Shown: one piece after another, positions 11,733 through 59,570 of the stretch | Layout of the letters: every line of letters begins with the position of its first letter | Position numbering within the stretch: the stretch's first letter is position 1 | NCBI GenBank assembly: GCA_021292165.1 | Contig: CM037879.1 | Coordinates: 18,251,525 to 18,315,524 of the forward strand | DNA from: Shinisaurus crocodilurus | Lineage: Eukaryota > Chordata > Lepidosauria > Squamata > Shinisauridae | Direction: 5' to 3' | DNA: 64,000 bases | Translations under genes and position numbers: made by a program | Notes under the pieces: model-generated | Told to the model about the DNA's origin: nothing | What the model saw: only the letters and a program-made list of their open reading frames with translations | The model's database searches: none

Positions 11733-11886
11733 CATAGATTCATAGATTCATAGATCATAGAGTTGGAAGGGGCCTACAAGGCCATCGAGTCCAACCCCCT
11801 GCTCAATTCAGGAAACTAGAGGAGGGATCTTCCATCCAAGTAACAACCAGGCCTGACCCTGCTGGGCTTTCCATGCTCAGACTCAC
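11733..11886 (-). mobile_element. 5S-headed SINE with CR1 tail
   Basis: Minus-strand copy. The CR1-like tail (TAGATCATAGAGTTGGAAG then GGCCATCGAGTCCAACCCCC) is on the left. The head on the right reads, in reverse, AAGCCCAGCAGGGTCAGGCC and TTACTTGGATGGAAGATC, close to the internal promoter of 5S rRNA genes. This copy is diverged and its head is slightly short. Confidence 0.7.
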
Positions 11887-16999: not shown

Positions 17000-17191
17000 T
17001 TGTACCAGCTGTACAGACCTATTTGTCCATTTGGCCCAGTGTTGTCTATTTTGACTGGTTCTCGAGGGTCTCAGGCAGAGGTCATTCCCATCTCGTACAA
17101 CTTGATCCTTTAAACCGAAGATGCCAGGGATTGAAGCTGGAGGGACATTCTGCATGCAAAGCATGTGCTCTACCACTGAGCTATGGTTCTT
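17000..17191 (-). mobile_element. tRNA-Ala-like SINE
   Basis: On the minus strand it reads CCATAGCTCAGTGGTAGAGC (box A), CATGCTTTGCATGCAGAATG (a TGC anticodon region as in tRNA-Ala), then a worn box B and a body also seen at 58517 and 59258. Its 5' end abuts the start of the CR1 at 17193. Confidence 0.75.
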
Positions 17192-17192
17192 C

Positions 17193-18142
17193 CAACTCAA
17201 AGAGTGCTTATCAACGGTTCCTTCTCAAACTGGGGAGAGGTAACGAGCGGGGTACCACAGGGCTCGGTCCTGGGCCCGGTGCTCTTCAACATTTTTATTA
17301 ATGACTTGGATCAGGAGGTACAGGGAATGCTTATCAAATTTGCAGATGACACAAAGTTGGGTGGAACAGCTAATACTCTGGAAGTCAGAAACAAAATTCA
17401 AAGTGACCTCGATAGGCTGGAGCGCTGGGCCGAAAACAACAGAATGAAATTTAATAGGGATAAATGCCAAGTGCTGCACCTAGGGAGAGGAAACCAAATG
17501 CAGAGTTACAGAATGGGGGACACTTGGCTTAACAATACTACAAGTGAGAAGGATCTTGGAATTGTGGTAGATCACAAACTGAATATGAGCCAGCAATGTG
17601 ATGTGGCTGCAAAGAAGGCAAATGCAATTTTGGGCTGTATTAATAGAAGTATAGCTTCCAAATCGCGGGAAGTGATAATTCCCCTTTACTCGGCACTGGT
17701 TAGGCCTCATCTTGAGTACTGCGTCCAGTTCTGGGCACCTCACTTTAAGAAGGACATAGACAAACTGGAGAGGGTTCAGAGGAGGGCAACAAGGATGATA
17801 AAGGGACTGGAAACAAGGCCCTATGAGGAGAGACTGAAAGAACTGGGCATGTTTAGCCTTCAGAAGAGGAGACTGAGGGGAGATATGATCGCACTCTTCC
17901 AGTATTTGAAGGGATGTCACACAGAGGAGGGCCAGGATCTCTTCTCGATCATCCCAGTTTGCAGGACACGGAATAATGGGCTCAAGTTACAGGAACCTAG
18001 ATTCCACCTAAACATCAGGAAAAATTTCCTGACTGTCAGAGCAATAAGACTATGGAACCAACTACCTAGGGAGCTGGTGGACTCTCCCACTCTGGAGGCA
18101 CTCAAGGTGCAGCTGGACAGCCATCTGTCAGGGATGCTTTGA
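17193..18142 (+). pseudogene. CR1 ORF2, C-terminal part of reverse transcriptase
   Basis: About 315 codons are open without a stop. The order is GVPQGSVLGPVLFNIFIND (fingers/palm), then FADDTKLGG, the catalytic box with the two aspartates in the F/Y-ADD form, then the thumb region and the conserved CR1 C-terminus with [26 protein letters not shown] and [14 protein letters not shown]. The AP-like endonuclease and the first part of the reverse transcriptase are missing, so this copy cannot move by itself. The frame stays open because the insertion is recent, not because of selection on this copy. Confidence 0.9.
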
Positions 18143-18235
18143 CCTGGATTCCTGCATTGAGCAGGGGGTTGGACTCGATGGCCTTGTAGGCCCCTTCCAA
18201 CTCTACTTTTTTATGATTCTATGAGTCCCTAAAAG
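17193..18235 (+). mobile_element. 5'-truncated CR1 LINE
   Basis: It has the end of the reverse transcriptase frame, then a short 3' UTR (GAGCAGGGGGTTGGACTCG) and the CR1 terminal motif ATGATTCTATGA. The 5' end is cut inside the reverse transcriptase, as is usual for CR1. It is very similar to the copies at 34706 and 56877, so this is a fairly young subfamily. Confidence 0.95.
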
Positions 18236-18825: not shown

Positions 18826-18839
18826 AACATGCTGTAGGA

Positions 18840-21433: not shown

Positions 21434-21484
21434 ATACACATGCATACATGTGTTACGACTGGCTTCTCTTAACACATCAGCAGT
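18840..21484. other. long stretch without recognised genes, with microsatellites
   Basis: Mostly AT-rich. Simple repeats: CT at 19741-19757, GT then GA at 21289-21340, TG at 21401-21431. The frames are short and lack known domains. This is the longest stretch in the window without a recognised transposon, so it is the best place to look for conserved non-coding sequence. Confidence 0.4.
21289..21431 (+). repeat. GT/GA compound and TG microsatellites
   Basis: A GT run passes directly into a GA run at 21289-21340, followed about 60 bp later by a second TG run at 21401-21431. Confidence 0.9.
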
Positions 21485-21634
21485 TTCATAGATCATAGAG
21501 CTGGAAGGGGCCTACAAGGCCATCGAGTCCAACCCCCTGCTCAATGCAGGAAACTAGAGGAGGGGTCTCCCATCCAAGTAATAACCAGGCCTGACCCTGC
21601 TTAGCTTTCCACGCTCAGACAAGCTGAGCCAGCG
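21485..21634 (-). mobile_element. 5S-headed SINE with CR1 tail
   Basis: Minus-strand copy with tail TAGATCATAGAGCTGGAAGG at left. On the right the head reads, in reverse, GGAAAGCTAAGCAGGGTCAG and CCTGGTTATTACTTGGATGG, matching the box A, intermediate and box C order of 5S genes. Confidence 0.85.
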
Positions 21635-21869
21635 GGAGCCACAGGCCTGTTGCTTAATCGCACACAGAAATTAAATTGCAGTTTCTAAGACAAGAATATT
21701 CAGCTGAAAGTATAGAGAACCAAGCCCACATCAAACTAAGAGAATGCCATCTACATGCTAATTTAATAACGTTTCAAATGTCTGCAAGCAAATGCATCTC
21801 TCTGCCTCCTTCACCCTCCTGCTACTGAATGACTATATCTGCAGAAGCAACAGTGGTGCCATCAGAAAC

Positions 21870-23754: not shown

Positions 23755-24345
23755 TTCATTTCATTTCATTTCATTTATTTCATTTCTATACCGCCCCACA
23801 GCCGAAGCTCTCTGGGTGGTTCACAACAATTTATACATAAAAAACCAACAATAAAAACATACAATATAGTTAAAAAGATTAAAAACCAAATTTAAAAGCA
23901 CAGTTTAAAATGACAATACAAAATATGCTGGCTCAGCTTGTCTGAGCATGGAAAGCTAAGCAGGGTCAGGCCTGGTTATTACCTGGATGGGAGACCCCTC
24001 CTCTAGTTTCCTGCATTGAGCAGGGGGTTGGACTCGATGGCCTTGTAGGCCCTTTCCAGCTCTATGATCTACGAAATCTATGAAAGTGAATAAAACCAAG
24101 CCTACAGGTGACAATCCCCCCCCCCCATGTGCTATTTTGAACTCTTAACTATTGAATGCCTTAGCATAGAGGGAAGTCTTAACCCAGTGCAGAAAAGATA
24201 GTAAGGTTGGCGCCAGGCGGGCCTCAGTGGGGAACTTATTCCATAATTGGGGGGCTACCACTGAGAAGGCCTTCCTCCTTGTTGCCACTAACCGAGCCTC
24301 TCTTGGAGGTGGCAGTCGGAGGAGGGCCCCAGATGTTGATGTGTG
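23755..24345 (-). mobile_element. L2-type LINE 3' end, split by a 5S SINE
   Basis: The L2 tail (complement of CCCAGAGAGCTTCGGCTGTG) is at the left. At the right the minus-strand translation gives KAFSVVAPQLWNKFP, the usual C-terminal motif. Comparison with 39192-39402 shows where the SINE went in. Confidence 0.85.
23926..24086 (+). mobile_element. 5S-headed SINE with CR1 tail, inside L2
   Basis: Head from GCTGGCTCAGCTTGTCTGAG through GGAAAGCTAAGCAGGGTCAG to GATGGGAGACC; tail GAGCAGGGGGTTGGACTCG to GAAATCTATGAAA. The uninterrupted L2 at 39345-39365 supplies the empty site. Confidence 0.9.
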
Positions 24346-34705: not shown

Positions 34706-35389
34706 TCATAGAATCATAGAAAAGTAGAGTTGGAAGGGGCCTACAAGGCATTCGAGTCCAACTCCCTGCTCAATGCAGGAATCCAGGTCAAAGCATCCCT
34801 CACAGATGGCTGTCCAGCCGCACCTTGAATGCCTCCAGATTGGGAGATCCCACCACCTCCCTAGGTAGTTGGTTCCATAGTCTTATTGCTCTGACAGTCA
34901 GGAAATTTGTCCTGATGTTTAGCTGGAATCTGGGTTGCTGTAATAACTTGAGCCCATTATTCCGTGTCCTGCAAACTGGGATGATCGAGAAGAGATCCTG
35001 GCCTTCCTCTGTGTGACATCCCTTCAAGTACTGGAAGAGTGCGATCATATCTCCCCTCAGTCTCCTCTTCTGAAGGCTAAACATGCCCAGTTCTTTCAGT
35101 CTCTCCTCATAGGGCCTTGTTTCCAGTCCCTTTATCATCCTTGTTGCCCTCCTCTGAACCCTCTCCAGTTTGTCTACGTCCTTCTTAAAGTGTGGTGCCC
35201 AGAACTGGACGCAGTAGCTCAAGATGAGGCCTAACCAGTGCTGAGTAAAGGGGAATTATCACTTCACGCGATTTGGAAGCTATACTTCTATTAATGCAGC
35301 CCAAAATAGCATTTGCCTTCTTTGCAGCCACATCACATTGCTGGCTCATATTTAGTTTGTGATCTACCACAATTCCAAGATCCTTCTCA
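34706..35389 (-). mobile_element. 5'-truncated CR1 LINE
   Basis: Same subfamily as 17193. The 3' terminus (complement of ATGATTCTATGA) is at 34708, and the ORF2 C-terminus reads on the minus strand in two frames (34800-35222 and 35185-35370), so one frameshift lies near 35200. Truncation falls after the FADDTKL box region, so only the last part of ORF2 is present. Confidence 0.95.
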
Positions 35390-39191: not shown

Positions 39192-39402
39192 GGTTTCATT
39201 CATTTCATTTATTTCATTTCTATACCGCCCCACAGCCGAAGCTCTCTGGGCGGTTCACAATAGTTTGTACATAAAAACAACAATAAAAGCATTCAAAATA
39301 GTTTAAAAGATTAAAAACCAAATTTAAAAACACAGTTTAAAATAACAATCCAAAAGTTAATAAAACTAAGCCTACGGGTGACAATCCCCCCCCCCCCCGT
39401 GC
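39192..39402 (-). mobile_element. L2-type LINE 3' end, uninterrupted
   Basis: Matches 23755-24130 without the SINE: the complement of CCCAGAGAGCTTCGGCTGTG at the left, then AAACCAAATTTAAAA, AACAATCCAAAAGTTAATAA, and a C run. Confidence 0.85.
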
Positions 39403-39627
39403 TATATCCATGCTCAGATCATAGTTTAAACCAGTGTTTCCCAAACTGTGTTCTGTGGAACCCTGGTGTTCCACAAGCTGTAAATAGGGGTTCAGTGAGA
39501 AAACATTCATGCTAGCAGTATTTTTCCCTCTAAAATATTAAATTATGTAAATATATCAAGAATAATTAATTGAATAGTATGTAGATTGTGAAAGCTTCTA
39601 TTGTGATGTTTCCAGGCGTCGAAAGCA

Positions 39628-39786
39628 CATAATGCAGGCCACATGCTGAAGCTAAGCAGGTATGAGCCGGGTCAGTGCTTGGACGGGTGACTGCCTGGGC
39701 TGCCCACATCTGTTCTCCTGCACTGAGCAGGGGGTTGGACTTGATGGCCTTCTCGGCCCCTCCCAACTCTGCTATTCTATGATTCA
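39628..39786 (+). mobile_element. 5S-headed SINE with CR1 tail, second head type
   Basis: The head is CTGAAGCTAAGCAGGTATGA, GCCGGGTCAGTGCTTGGACG, GGTGACTGCCTGGG, which keeps 5S sequence past box C (CGCCTGGG in 5S). The tail is GAGCAGGGGGTTGGACTTG ... TATTCTATGATTC. In the other copies the head stops at GGGAGACC and a CTCCTCTAG linker follows, so this is a separate subfamily. Confidence 0.75.
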
Positions 39787-40589
39787 ATAAGGACAGTCCT
39801 TTTTTAAAACAAAATTGTCCTCCCTGTTTTTGTACACAGGAAGGACACTACCGTCCTTCCTTTAACTATTACATTGCTGTTTTCTGATGAGTTTGTACTT
39901 AATCTTTAATTTTTATATTTAGCGTTTCTAACCATCCTCCTATCCTTTGTTCTGCTCTCTTTATCATTTGTTCTTTGTAAAATATAAAACATCCCCCCAA
40001 AACAAACTTGTAAAAGGCATCGCAGTAAACCTACACAGATCATCAACACCTTTTCACTTGAGTGTCTGACATGCCAGGATTAATTTCCTCCTCAAATGTC
40101 ATTAATTCATACGCAATTATTAGCTAATAGGATGATTCCCCATAATCACTATGAAGTGACAACAGTGGTCTATGTCATTGGCCATACTTGTTGTCAGGGC
40201 TGTGAAGTTCACCCGCAAACCATGCCTACCACAACCTCATTACCTCCCTCACTCCCACAACTAATGGGACGTGATTTTTTGTTTTGCAATCCTTGAGGAT
40301 CCCACACAGTCCCTCCACCAGCTTATAAGGACAAAGTTACAAGCTGTTGAGTTTATAGGCACTGGCCTCTGGCGCTTGATTCCTCTTGATGTGTGTAGGA
40401 GCCAACCTCAAGAGGAGGGCAGATTTAGACACCTCTGAACAAACAGAGCTACTTTTAATATCAGATAAGGTTTTGCCTGATAAAAGCAGGTCGGTGTGCT
40501 TTGAAATGAAATCGAAATTCTGCACAAAACTCCTCCGCACATCCTTCTACATCCTCAGAGTTGCTTTATGTTATTGCTGGGCAAATCTA
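39787..40589. other. no recognised feature
   Basis: A GGACAGTCC-like inverted motif lies at 39790-39860. Otherwise nothing. Confidence 0.4.
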
Positions 40590-42080: not shown

Positions 42081-42597
42081 CATTTCTCCATAAATGGGAC
42101 AGAAAGAACTTGTGGTGAAAAAAAATAAGTGGCCAACTTTGCTGACGACACCAAATTATTTCAGGTGATTAAAACAAAAAGGGATTGTGAGGAGCTCCAA
42201 AAGGATCTCTCCAAGCTGGGGAAATAGGCATCAAAATGGCAAACGTGGTTCAATGTAAGAAGTGCAAAGTGATGCCACTGGGGCAAAAAAATCCCAACTT
42301 CAAGTATAATCTGATGGGATCTGAGCTAGTGGTGACTGACCAAGAAAGAGATCTGTGGGTTGTGGTGGACAGCTTGATGAAAATGACCATCCCAGTGTGT
42401 GACTGCTGTGAAAAAAGCAAACTCCAAGTTAGGCATAATTAGGATAGGAATTGAAAATAAAACTGCCAATATCATACTCCCCTTATATGAATATCTGGTG
42501 CGACCACACCTTGAACACTGTGTACAGTTCTGGTCACCACACCTAAAAAGGGATATTGTAGAGTTGAAAAAGTGCAGAAAAGGGCAACTAAAATGAG

Positions 42598-42661
42598 CAG
42601 GGGGTTGGACTTAATAGCCTTGTAGGCTCCTTCCAACTCTATGATCTATGAAATCTATGAA
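42598..42661 (+). mobile_element. tail fragment of a 5S-headed or CR1-tailed SINE
   Basis: GAGCAGGGGGTTGGACTTAA to GATCTATGAAATCTATGAA, only about 64 bp. The doubled ATCTATGAA end is that of the 5S-headed family rather than of the CR1 LINE. Confidence 0.7.
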
Positions 42662-50061: not shown

Positions 50062-50196
50062 CAGTGTTCTCCAACCTTGGGTCCCCAGGTGTTTTTGGCC
50101 TCCAACTCCCAGCATGCCCCAGCCAGCGTAGCTGGCTGGGGCATGCTGGGAGTTGGAGGCCAAAAACACCTGGGGACCCAAGGTTGGAGAACACTG
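50062..50196. mobile_element. perfect palindromic hAT MITE, family B
   Basis: 135 bp: two 66-bp arms that are exact complements around the 3-base loop GTA (arm starts CAGTGTTCTCCAACCTTGGG). The 8-bp repeat CTCTACAG is perfect at 50054-50061 and 50197-50204. No drift between the arms points to a recent insertion or ongoing arm correction. Confidence 0.95.
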
Positions 50197-51503: not shown

Positions 51504-51670
51504 CTGTGGCTCACGCTGGCGCAGCTTGTCTGAGTGCGGAAAGCTAAGCAGGGTCAGGCCATGGGTTATTACTTGGCTGGGAGACCCCTCCTCTAGTTTC
51601 CTGCATTGAGCAGGGGGTTGGACTCAATGGCCTTGTAGGCTCCTTCCAACTCTATGATCTATGAAATCTA
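51504..51670 (+). mobile_element. 5S-headed SINE with CR1 tail, in an ATC microsatellite
   Basis: Head GGCGCAGCTTGTCTGAGTGC, GGAAAGCTAAGCAGGGTCAG, then GGGAGACCCCTCCTCTAG and the CR1 tail. CATCAT runs flank it (51475-51503 and 51680-51692), so it went into a trinucleotide repeat. Confidence 0.9.
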
Positions 51671-55060: not shown

Positions 55061-55226
55061 TGGCTTACGCTGGCTCAGCTTGTCTGAGTGTGGAAAGCTA
55101 AGCAGGGTCAAGTCTGGTTATTACTTGGATGGGAGACCCCTCCTCTAGTTTCCTGCATTAAGCAGGGGGTTGGACTCGATAGCCCTGTAGGCTCCTTCCA
55201 ATTCTATGATCTATGAAATCTATGAA
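55061..55226 (+). mobile_element. 5S-headed SINE with CR1 tail
   Basis: GCTGGCTCAGCTTGTCTGAG, GGAAAGCTAAGCAGGGTCAA, TTACTTGGATGGGAGACC, then the CTCCTCTAG linker and CR1 tail ending TGATCTATGAAATCTATGAA. The head is close to intact. Confidence 0.9.
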
Positions 55227-55234
55227 ATATGCCA

Positions 55235-56876: not shown

Positions 56877-57945
56877 TCATAGAATCATAGAAAAGTAGAG
56901 TTGGAAGGGGCCTACAAAGCCATCGAGTCCAACCCCCTGCTCAATGCAGGAATCTAGGTCAAAGCATCCCTGACAGATGGCTGTCCAGCTGCACCTTGAA
57001 TGCCTCCAGAGTGGGAGAGCCCACAACCTCCCTAGGTAGTTGATTCCATTGTCTTATTGCTCTGACAGTCAGGAAATTTTTCCTGATGTTTAGGTGGAAT
57101 CTAGGTTCCTGTAATTTGAGCCCATTATTCCGTGTCCTGCAAACTGGGATGATCGAGAAGAGATCCTTGCCCTCCTCGTGTGACATCCCTTCAAATACTG
57201 GAAGAGTGCGATCATATCTCCCCTCAGTCTCCTCTTCTGAAGGCTAAACATGCCCAGTTCTTTCAGTCTCCTCATAGGGCCTTGTTTCCAGTCCCTTTAT
57301 CATCCTTGTTGCCCTCCTCTGAACCCTCTCCAGTTTGTCTATGTCCTTCTTAAAGTGAGGTGCCCAGAACTGGACGCAGTACTCAAGATGAGGCCTAACC
57401 AGTGCCGAGTAAAGGGGAATTATCACTTCCCGCGATTTGGAAGCTATACTTCTATTAATACAGCCCAAAATTGCATTTGCCTTCTTTGCAGCCACATCGC
57501 ATTGCTGGCTCATATTCAGTTTGTGATCTACCACAATTCCAAGATCCTTCTCACTTGTAGTATTGTTGAGCCAAGTGTCCCCCATTCTGTAACTCTGCAT
57601 TTGTTTTCCTCTCCCTAGGTGCAGCACTTGGCATTTATCCCTATTAAATTTCATTCTGTTGTTTTCGGCCCAGCGCTCCAGCCTATCGAGGTCACTTTGA
57701 ATTTTGTTTCTGTCTTCCAGAGTATTAGCTGTTCCACCCAACTTTGTGTCATCTGCAAATTTGATAAGCATTCCCTGTACCTCCTGATCCAAGTCATTAA
57801 TAAAAATGTTGAAGAGCACCGGGCCCAGGACCGAGCCCTGTGGTACCCCGCTCGTTACCTCTCCCCAGTTTGAGAAGGAACCATTGATAAGCACTCTTTG
57901 AGTCCGATTCTGTAGCCAATTGTGGATCCACCTGATAGTTGTGTA
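56877..57945 (-). mobile_element. 5'-truncated CR1 LINE inside the SINE
   Basis: Same subfamily as 17193 and slightly longer at the 5' side (WIHNWLQNRTQRVLING precedes the GVPQGS part). The terminus at 56878 is the complement of ATTCTATGAT. It interrupts the SINE between GGCTTACATAATC and CTCCTCCTCTCC. Confidence 0.95.
56959..57945 (-). pseudogene. CR1 ORF2, C-terminal part with a frameshift
   Basis: The minus-strand frame is open from 57972 to about 57260 with GVPQGSVLGPVLFNIFIND, FADDTKLGG and the [16 protein letters not shown] region. It then shifts near 57265 (a lost base in the ERLKELG part) and again near 57180. Endonuclease and early reverse transcriptase are missing, so it is inactive. 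Confidence 0.9.
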
Positions 57946-58319
57946 TCCTCCTCCTCTCCATTTTATCCTCACAACAACCCTGTGAGGTAGGTTAGGCTGA
58001 GAGTCAGTGACTGGCCCAAAGTCAACCAGTGAGTTTCATGGCCGAGCGGGGACTAGAATCCGGATCTCCCAAGTCCCAGTCCAACACTCTCACCACTACG
58101 CCACACTGGCTCTTCTAAATGCCTCTCCTAAGGCTTAGCATCTGACAGTAAGAGTTTTATGCTAAACTATGCCGATGTTTTTGTTATTTTGACCCCACCC
58201 CTTTTGCCTTTGATCCTGACCACGACTGCAGTGTGCCCCCCCCCAAGAGCTTCTCCGAAATAGAATTCGGCCCTTGGGCTGAAAGAGGTTCTGCACTCCT
58301 GCCCTAAGCTTGTTAGGAC

Positions 58320-59257: not shown

Positions 59258-59570
59258 GGAAGAACTGTTGCTCAGTAGTGGAGCACATGCTTTGCATGCA
59301 AAGGGTCCTGGGATCAATCTCCAGCATCTCTAGGTAGAGTTGGCAAAGACTCCTGCATGAAACCCTGAAGAATATAGCATAGACTAAGACTGAGCAAGAT
59401 GGACCAATGGTCTAATCCAGTGTTCTCCAACCTTGGGTCCCCAGATGTTTTTGGCCTACAACTCCCAGCATGCCCCAGCCAGAGTTGTAGGCCAAAAACT
59501 TCTGGGGACCCAAGGCTGGAGAACACTGGTCTAATCCCATACAAGGCAGCTTCCTGTGTTCCCTCTCTGA
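59258..59570 (+). mobile_element. tRNA-Ala-like SINE split by a hAT MITE
   Basis: GTTGCTCAGTAGTGGAGCAC (box A), ATGCTTTGCATGCAAAGGGT (TGC anticodon region), GGGATCAATCTCCAGC (box B), then GATGGACCAATGGTCTAATC, the MITE, and CAAGGCAGCTTCCTGTGTTC. Confidence 0.85.
59418..59528. mobile_element. palindromic hAT MITE, family B, inside a SINE
   Basis: CAGTGTTCTCCAACCTTGGG at the left, its near complement at the right, 111 bp. The 8-bp repeat GTCTAATC is perfect at 59410-59417 and 59529-59536. The middle is shorter than at 50062 and a few arm mismatches are present. Confidence 0.95.

Follow-up and report, generated by a model that had tools for sequence, protein, structure and literature searches.

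A SINE family joining a 5S rRNA-derived head to a CR1-derived tail in the genome of Shinisaurus crocodilurus

Results and discussion

Five related copies in the window

At positions 23927–24084 of the 64,000-nucleotide stretch of Shinisaurus crocodilurus DNA analysed here (the window), a 5S rRNA-like sequence is followed closely by sequence resembling the 3' end of a CR1 LINE, raising the question of whether these two parts form one mobile element or merely lie beside each other. A preliminary description of the window had proposed a single SINE with copies at 11733, 21485, 23926, 51504 and 55061, and BLAST with the index copy placed five copies near all of these positions, the other four being 91–97% identical to it; two of the five, 11739–11882 and 21484–21650, lie on the minus strand. 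The copies of this family (family A), with a tail-only SINE listed last, are:

23927–24084, plus strand: index copy, 5' truncated, its first base being consensus nt 18
11739–11882, minus strand: family A copy, found by BLAST with the index copy
21484–21650, minus strand: family A copy, found by BLAST with the index copy over 21484–21633, beginning at consensus nt 1
51504–51670, plus strand: family A copy within an (ATC)n tract, found by BLAST with the index copy over 51515–51670
55061–55226, plus strand: family A copy, found by BLAST with the index copy over 55069–55227
42594–42660, plus strand: SINE truncated at its 5' end to the tail alone, inserted in an older CR1-like repeat

The index copy reads GGAAAGCTAAGCAGGGTCAG ... 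GGATGGGAGACC CCTCCTCTAG TTTCCTGCATTGAGCAGG. Elements are about 165–175 bases long, and the consensus of 175 bases was built from 39 near-full copies taken from the window, eight loci 3 kb long and 20 others 10 kb long. The copies from outside the window that underlie our statistics were all drawn from the initial 1.8 Mb of a single chromosome (C1), in which segmental duplications are present: within the first few Mb of G000:C1, duplicates such as L009/L013 and L011/L015 are 97–98% identical, and motif spacings repeat among the matches. Among 120 listed of 211 RAG1 matches, the gene of this genome shows 94% identity to Elgaria multicarinata, 89% to Podarcis, 87% to Anolis sagrei and 84–85% to the gecko and snakes, which marks the host as a squamate and most probably an anguimorph, the group of Elgaria; a search for a mitochondrial gene gave 0 matches.

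The head derives from 5S rRNA

The following features were assigned in the 5' half of the index copy, the promoter boxes being placed by hand within limits that we take to be those of the 5S internal control elements:

23937–23996, plus strand: 5S rRNA-derived head, 5S nt 34–92 (BLAST, 86.7% identity to human 5S)
23954–23968, plus strand: A box equivalent, 5S nt 50–64 (hand-placed)
23971–23976, plus strand: intermediate element (IE), 5S nt 67–72 (hand-placed)
23984–23996, plus strand: C box, 5S nt 80–92, covering 13 of its 18 positions from the 5' side (hand-placed)

With human 5S as query, BLAST matched all five heads in the window (E 2.5e-14 to 4.1e-9), together with a further site at 39648 (E 1.4e-9); a seventh site, at 18839, matched weakly (E 6.6e-4). 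The consensus head scored 95 against human 5S, compared to 21.6±4.0 (maximum 42) for 2000 dinucleotide shuffles, and 98 against the genome's own 5S, compared to 20.0±4.0 (maximum 38) for 1000 shuffles: the likeness of the head to 5S thus lies far above chance, and the chance-level similarity that the preliminary description had named as refuting its reading is not what we observed. It spans 5S nt 23–96 in the consensus and retains the A box (14/15 matches to human 5S), the intermediate element (6/6) and most of the C box (all 16 aligned bases identical, of 18 positions); outside the boxes, 20 of 26 aligned bases equal human 5S over nt 23–49. As in 5S-derived SINEs, the homology to 5S rRNA includes the internal control region. 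TTTT is absent from the consensus, and the 5S likeness of its first 30 bases is not significant (P 0.41). The head contains only part of 5S, and none of the window copies was matched by the Rfam 5S model, even with E values of up to 10 allowed.

The tail is shared with a co-resident CR1 LINE

The 3' half of the index copy and the LINE copies in the window that share this tail are:

24008–24064, plus strand: CR1-derived tail of 57 bases, identical between the SINE consensus and the majority of LINE copies
24065–24084, plus strand: SINE-specific terminal repeat, consensus TGATCTATGAAATCTATGAA, LINE counterpart CTTTTCTATGATTCTATGA
17180–18224, plus strand: 5'-truncated CR1 LINE with reverse transcriptase (RT) ORF 17180–18142, tail shared with family A
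34706–35255, minus strand: 5'-truncated CR1 LINE, tail shared with family A
56877–58035, minus strand: 5'-truncated CR1 LINE with ORF 57244–58035, tail shared with family A

Across these 57 bases, from TTCCTGC to CTCTA, the SINE consensus is identical to the majority of 26 ungapped LINE copies, and the exact 57-mer is found in 13 of 35 LINE copies. As in CR1-mobilised SINEs, the 3' end of family A is therefore homologous to that of a CR1 LINE of the same genome; where the preliminary description gave 65–75 bp, 57 bases are shared with the LINE, and a terminal repeat specific to the SINE follows them. This terminus consists of a ATCTATGA repeat related to the LINE octamer ATTCTATG, with the octamer type itself seen in a second family (family B, below) and in one family A copy (L027).

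We assign the partner LINE to CR1 on its ATTCTATG repeat, its 3' hallmarks and its RT homology, a classification by likeness rather than by tree. The ATTCTATG repeat corresponds to the AUUCURUG motif described as typical of amniote CR1 (PMC5729268). For the RT ORF 17180–18142, similar proteins with an RT domain (PF00078) occur in squamates and birds: among the 120 matches listed, identity reaches 80% in Rhineura, 77% in Podarcis and 75% in Anolis, with birds standing first by E-value. Genome-wide, the LINE body-tail junction occurs 51,383 times with up to three mismatches (reversed-pattern control 0). LINE copies are 5' truncated at many lengths, and the main ORF is frameshifted in the one long copy that was translated. 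Three copies are 98.5–99.2% identical over 2.5–3.2 kb, the longest pair sharing 99.2% over 3.15 kb, and the 35 copies reaching the LINE body show a median identity of 96.1% to one of these.

The tail keeps a hairpin, as in CR1-mobilised SINEs, with pairing in 36–38 of 39 copies at each of four stem positions. Its outermost pair is G-C in 21 copies, A-T in ten, G-T in five and unpaired in three; since the copies share descent and segmental duplications contain some of them, this covariation possibly reflects a single compensatory change and is probably one subfamily change counted many times.

One junction joins both parts throughout the genome

Between the two parts lies a short linker:

23997–24006, plus strand: linker CCTCCTCTAG, separating the 5S part from the CR1 part by about 10 bases

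The exact junction GGGAGACCCCTCCTCTAGTTTCCTG is present in 29 of 42 two-module copies, with near-variants in five and no match to the pattern in eight; the 42 include one family B copy (39649) and some copies in duplicated segments. Searching the 2.19 Gb genome for the 34-base head-linker-tail junction with up to three mismatches returned 82,977 occurrences and none for the reversed-pattern control, and a head motif of 20 bases was counted 51,790 times (reversed-pattern control 0). The expectation that many copies would share one linker is hence borne out. Part of this linker, the CTAG within CCTCCTCTAG, may be LINE-derived; similarity of the linker to that of family B (P 0.29) and to the LINE (P 0.97) is insignificant.

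Family copy numbers given here are pattern counts. Taking some 83,000 copies of about 165 bases, family A would amount to near 14 Mb, or 0.6% of the genome. Median divergence is 3.2% (2.7% at non-CpG positions; n = 37 copies), values that are lowered because an exact match to a head motif was used to choose most of the sampled copies; the five window copies, which were not picked in this manner, diverge by 1.2–5.0% (non-CpG). A further 20 C1 loci, chosen by exact junction, yielded 26 matches to the consensus at 90–100% identity. Family A is fairly young and very abundant, and the SINE copies and sampled LINE copies are of similar age. In viral, bacterial and archaeal genome contigs the junction was absent, which says little about its distribution because these collections hardly contain lizard DNA. 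A search with a peptide of 44 residues, translated through a family A copy in antisense, gave one candidate, with none at E up to 10.

Some copies are arranged in tandem: three arrays, L029, L030 and L031 (G000:C1:2588200-2588950, 2895300-2896300 and 3358200-3358900), each hold three family A units, the first truncated, with periods of about 170–180 and 244 bases.

Ends and insertion sites

We analysed the ends of family A using 32 copies, free of near-duplicates, each of which extends to nt 30 as well as nt 150 of the consensus. Starts fall at consensus nt 1 in 15 copies and at nt 2–22 in the remaining 17. Agreement between copies drops outside the 175-base consensus, and because it stops at the element ends, the copies are not pieces of some longer repeat, the circumstance that the preliminary description had named as refuting its reading. 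The elements are short, dispersed in many copies, discrete in their ends and flanked by sequence that differs from copy to copy, as SINEs are.

Target-site duplications were not found in this set: the longest boundary match averages 2.19 bases, compared to 2.30±0.19 for shuffled flanks, with one exception (L025) showing a 7-base match. Because such duplications are absent, it is the structure, the 5' truncation and the empty sites that speak for retrotransposition. Paralogous empty sites, in paralogues 74–99% identical, were identified for four of the 42 copies. For the index copy, one lies in the window:

39194–39405, plus strand: paralogous repeat, empty at the site of the index copy

The site of the index copy is also empty in L024, and both this insertion and that at L023 took place without duplication and with almost zero loss of target sequence. 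At L027 about 11 bases or more were lost, depending upon the paralogue used, and at L018 about 17–20 bases. The two LINE insertions examined are similar: L022, which lies inside a SINE, shows no target-site duplication and a loss of about 8 bases, and L015, compared to its 98% identical duplicate L011, shows none either and a loss of about 24–27 bases, CR1-CR1 recombination being possible in the latter case because the site sits in another CR1. The likeness of SINE and LINE insertions is consistent with one machinery serving both, though it is no proof of this.

These results bear on an alternative, namely that fragments of 5S pseudogenes lie beside CR1 fragments by chance, or that the copies are pieces of a longer repeat. 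Both ingredients are common, with 179,777 first-look 5S candidates in our 5S gene survey (47 of which were scored) and the LINE junctions counted above. Against this explanation, a single junction is repeated in some 83,000 places, with none for the control, and the same junction stands between unrelated flanks and is missing from four empty paralogues. Chance adjacency and origin from a longer repeat are thus refuted by a shared junction with unrelated flanks, and we regard this explanation as having next to no likelihood.

Proposed mode of amplification

Family A is very likely a SINE transcribed by RNA polymerase III and mobilised by CR1, a reading of transcription and mobilisation drawn from sequence features. 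The type 1 internal promoter in the 5S head (A box, IE and C box) would direct transcription by RNA polymerase III via TFIIIA/TFIIIC. The 3' part of the transcript would carry the CR1 hairpin and the terminal repeats; this part would be bound by the RT of the genome's own CR1 LINE and copied at a nicked site.

Alternatively, the SINE could have been spread by another LINE (L2, for example), leaving the CR1-like tail as a relic. The terminal repeat of family A does differ from the LINE octamer, and the squamate SINE Squam3 is described as having an L2-like 3' end and few target-site duplications (PMC7983390). Against this, the consensus equals a co-resident young CR1 over 57 bases and keeps the hairpin, the SINE copy L027 terminates in the LINE-type repeat, and both examined LINE insertions likewise lack target-site duplications. 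We therefore consider spread by another LINE improbable and retain CR1 as the likely partner.

A second family and the question of repeated capture

The additional 5S match in the window belongs to a rarer family of the same general plan:

39615–39788, plus strand: SINE family B copy, head of 5S nt 48–99, CR1 tail with the ATTCTATG octamer

The family B junction occurs 3,478 times in the genome (up to three mismatches; control 0). Its head aligns to 5S nt 48–99 without gaps at a score of 68, compared to 20.8±4.0 (maximum 38) for 1000 shuffles. Ten loci and the window copy are 88–97% identical to the family B consensus, these loci having been picked by an exact 34-base match and two of them (L052 and L053) having like flanks.

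Families A and B could both descend from one older 5S-CR1 SINE, with family A having lost about 11 bases after the 5S part. The order of modules is identical and the linkers can be aligned with an 11-base gap, but the similarity of these linkers is insignificant (P 0.29) and the family A head is nearer to 5S than that of family B (scores of 95–98 versus 66–68); family B in its present form is therefore not the source of family A. In sum, we give a common ancestor slightly less than an even chance.

A third arrangement was observed at L016:7723-7822 (G000:C1, ~1,282,722), where 5S nt 17–117 at 90% identity is followed directly by tRNA-SINE-like sequence. We take this to be a 5S-tRNA chimera with a plan like that of AmnSINE1.

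It is conceivable, if rather doubtful, that the CR1 machinery captured 5S more than once in this lizard lineage, as nt 23–96 in family A and as nt 48–99 in family B, both on the same CR1 tail; the 5S-tRNA chimera exists separately from these. Were this true, 5S-CR1 fusion would be a recurrent route of SINE formation, matching for 5S the swapping of tRNA heads that has been proposed for SINEs of passerines.

The genome's own 5S genes as possible donor

Our survey located an array of 5S genes on C3 that repeats about every 0.9 kb, more 5S on small contigs and two genes on C5. All seven array genes read (L060–L066) carry A at nt 63, whilst the C5 gene read (L059) and human 5S carry G. The family A head has A63, as does the main array; its alignment score is 98 with the array gene and 96 with that on C5. 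This single base points to the 5S of this lineage as the putative source of the head. The two gene types (G000:C5:69739357-69739475 and the C3 array) also differ at two bases close to the 5' end and in their flanks.

Relation to known SINEs

Both 5S-headed and CR1-tailed SINEs are already on record, as the preliminary description had stated (PMC5998507, PMC5753468, PMC5729268). Our searches of the open-access literature found no SINE combining 5S with CR1, and the accessible text of PMC13295347, PMC8303610, PMC4316615, PMC4054807 and PMC8010984 names none. Within these searches the pairing of the two known modules looks new; a description of family A in a library only is quite possible because repeat libraries (Repbase/Dfam), supplements and closed journals lie outside their scope.

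The passerine SINEs TguSINE1 and PittSINE likewise set an RNA-gene head on a CR1 tail with a hairpin and an 8-bp microsatellite, as described in PMC5729268. Unlike family A, their heads derive from tRNA-Ile and tRNA-Asp, and the scheme given for PittSINE contains a target-site duplication, whereas none was found in family A (PMC5729268). In tuatara, tuaCR1-SINE1a/b are, like family A, CR1-mobilised SINEs of a lepidosaur, and about 6,900 ncRNA-like elements overlap one of them (PMC7116210); they could be the nearest relative of family A.

Family A shares its 5S rRNA-derived head with the SINE3/5S class, which includes fish SINE3, AmnSINE1 and DeuSINE (PMC5998507, PMC5753468). SINE3 elements have a central region after the 5S part, whereas in family A only about 10 bases precede the CR1 part. 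This spacing also rules out family A as an AmnSINE1 or Deu-SINE, in which a central Deu domain lies between head and tail. The 5S-Sauria-RTE SINEs, a RepeatMasker class for which our open-access searches found no paper, have a squamate 5S head, a Sauria SINE body and a Bov-B/RTE tail, not a CR1 tail.

Around ten SINE families are reported in reptiles, among them Squam3 with a tRNA head, a CORE domain and the L2-like 3' end (PMC7983390); with its 5S head, its CR1 tail and no room for a body, family A is not Squam3. In the diamondback moth, PxSE4 and PxSE5 begin with a 5S-derived part in which the A, IE and C boxes are present, and PxSE5 shares 84% identity with a LINE over its terminal 43 bp at the 3' end, a LINE-like tail as in family A; unlike family A, these elements of 389 bp have a long body (PMC8010984).

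Family A thus joins a less common promoter source, 5S, to a CR1 tail in a fairly young and very abundant family. Because the likely donor 5S array and the partner LINE share one genome, it offers a good natural case for the study of SINE birth and of the 3' requirements of CR1, and its copies, in their tens of thousands, are candidate presence/absence markers with which lizard phylogeny could be studied.

Other elements in the window

A near-perfect palindrome of 85 bases (a foldback element) at 50087–50171 matched several microRNA models below their gathering scores, with weaker matches to these models at 823, 14193, 37060, 41890, 58267 and 59435. At 59261–59332 a tRNA model matched with 29.5 bits (threshold 29), probably marking the head of a tRNA-derived SINE.
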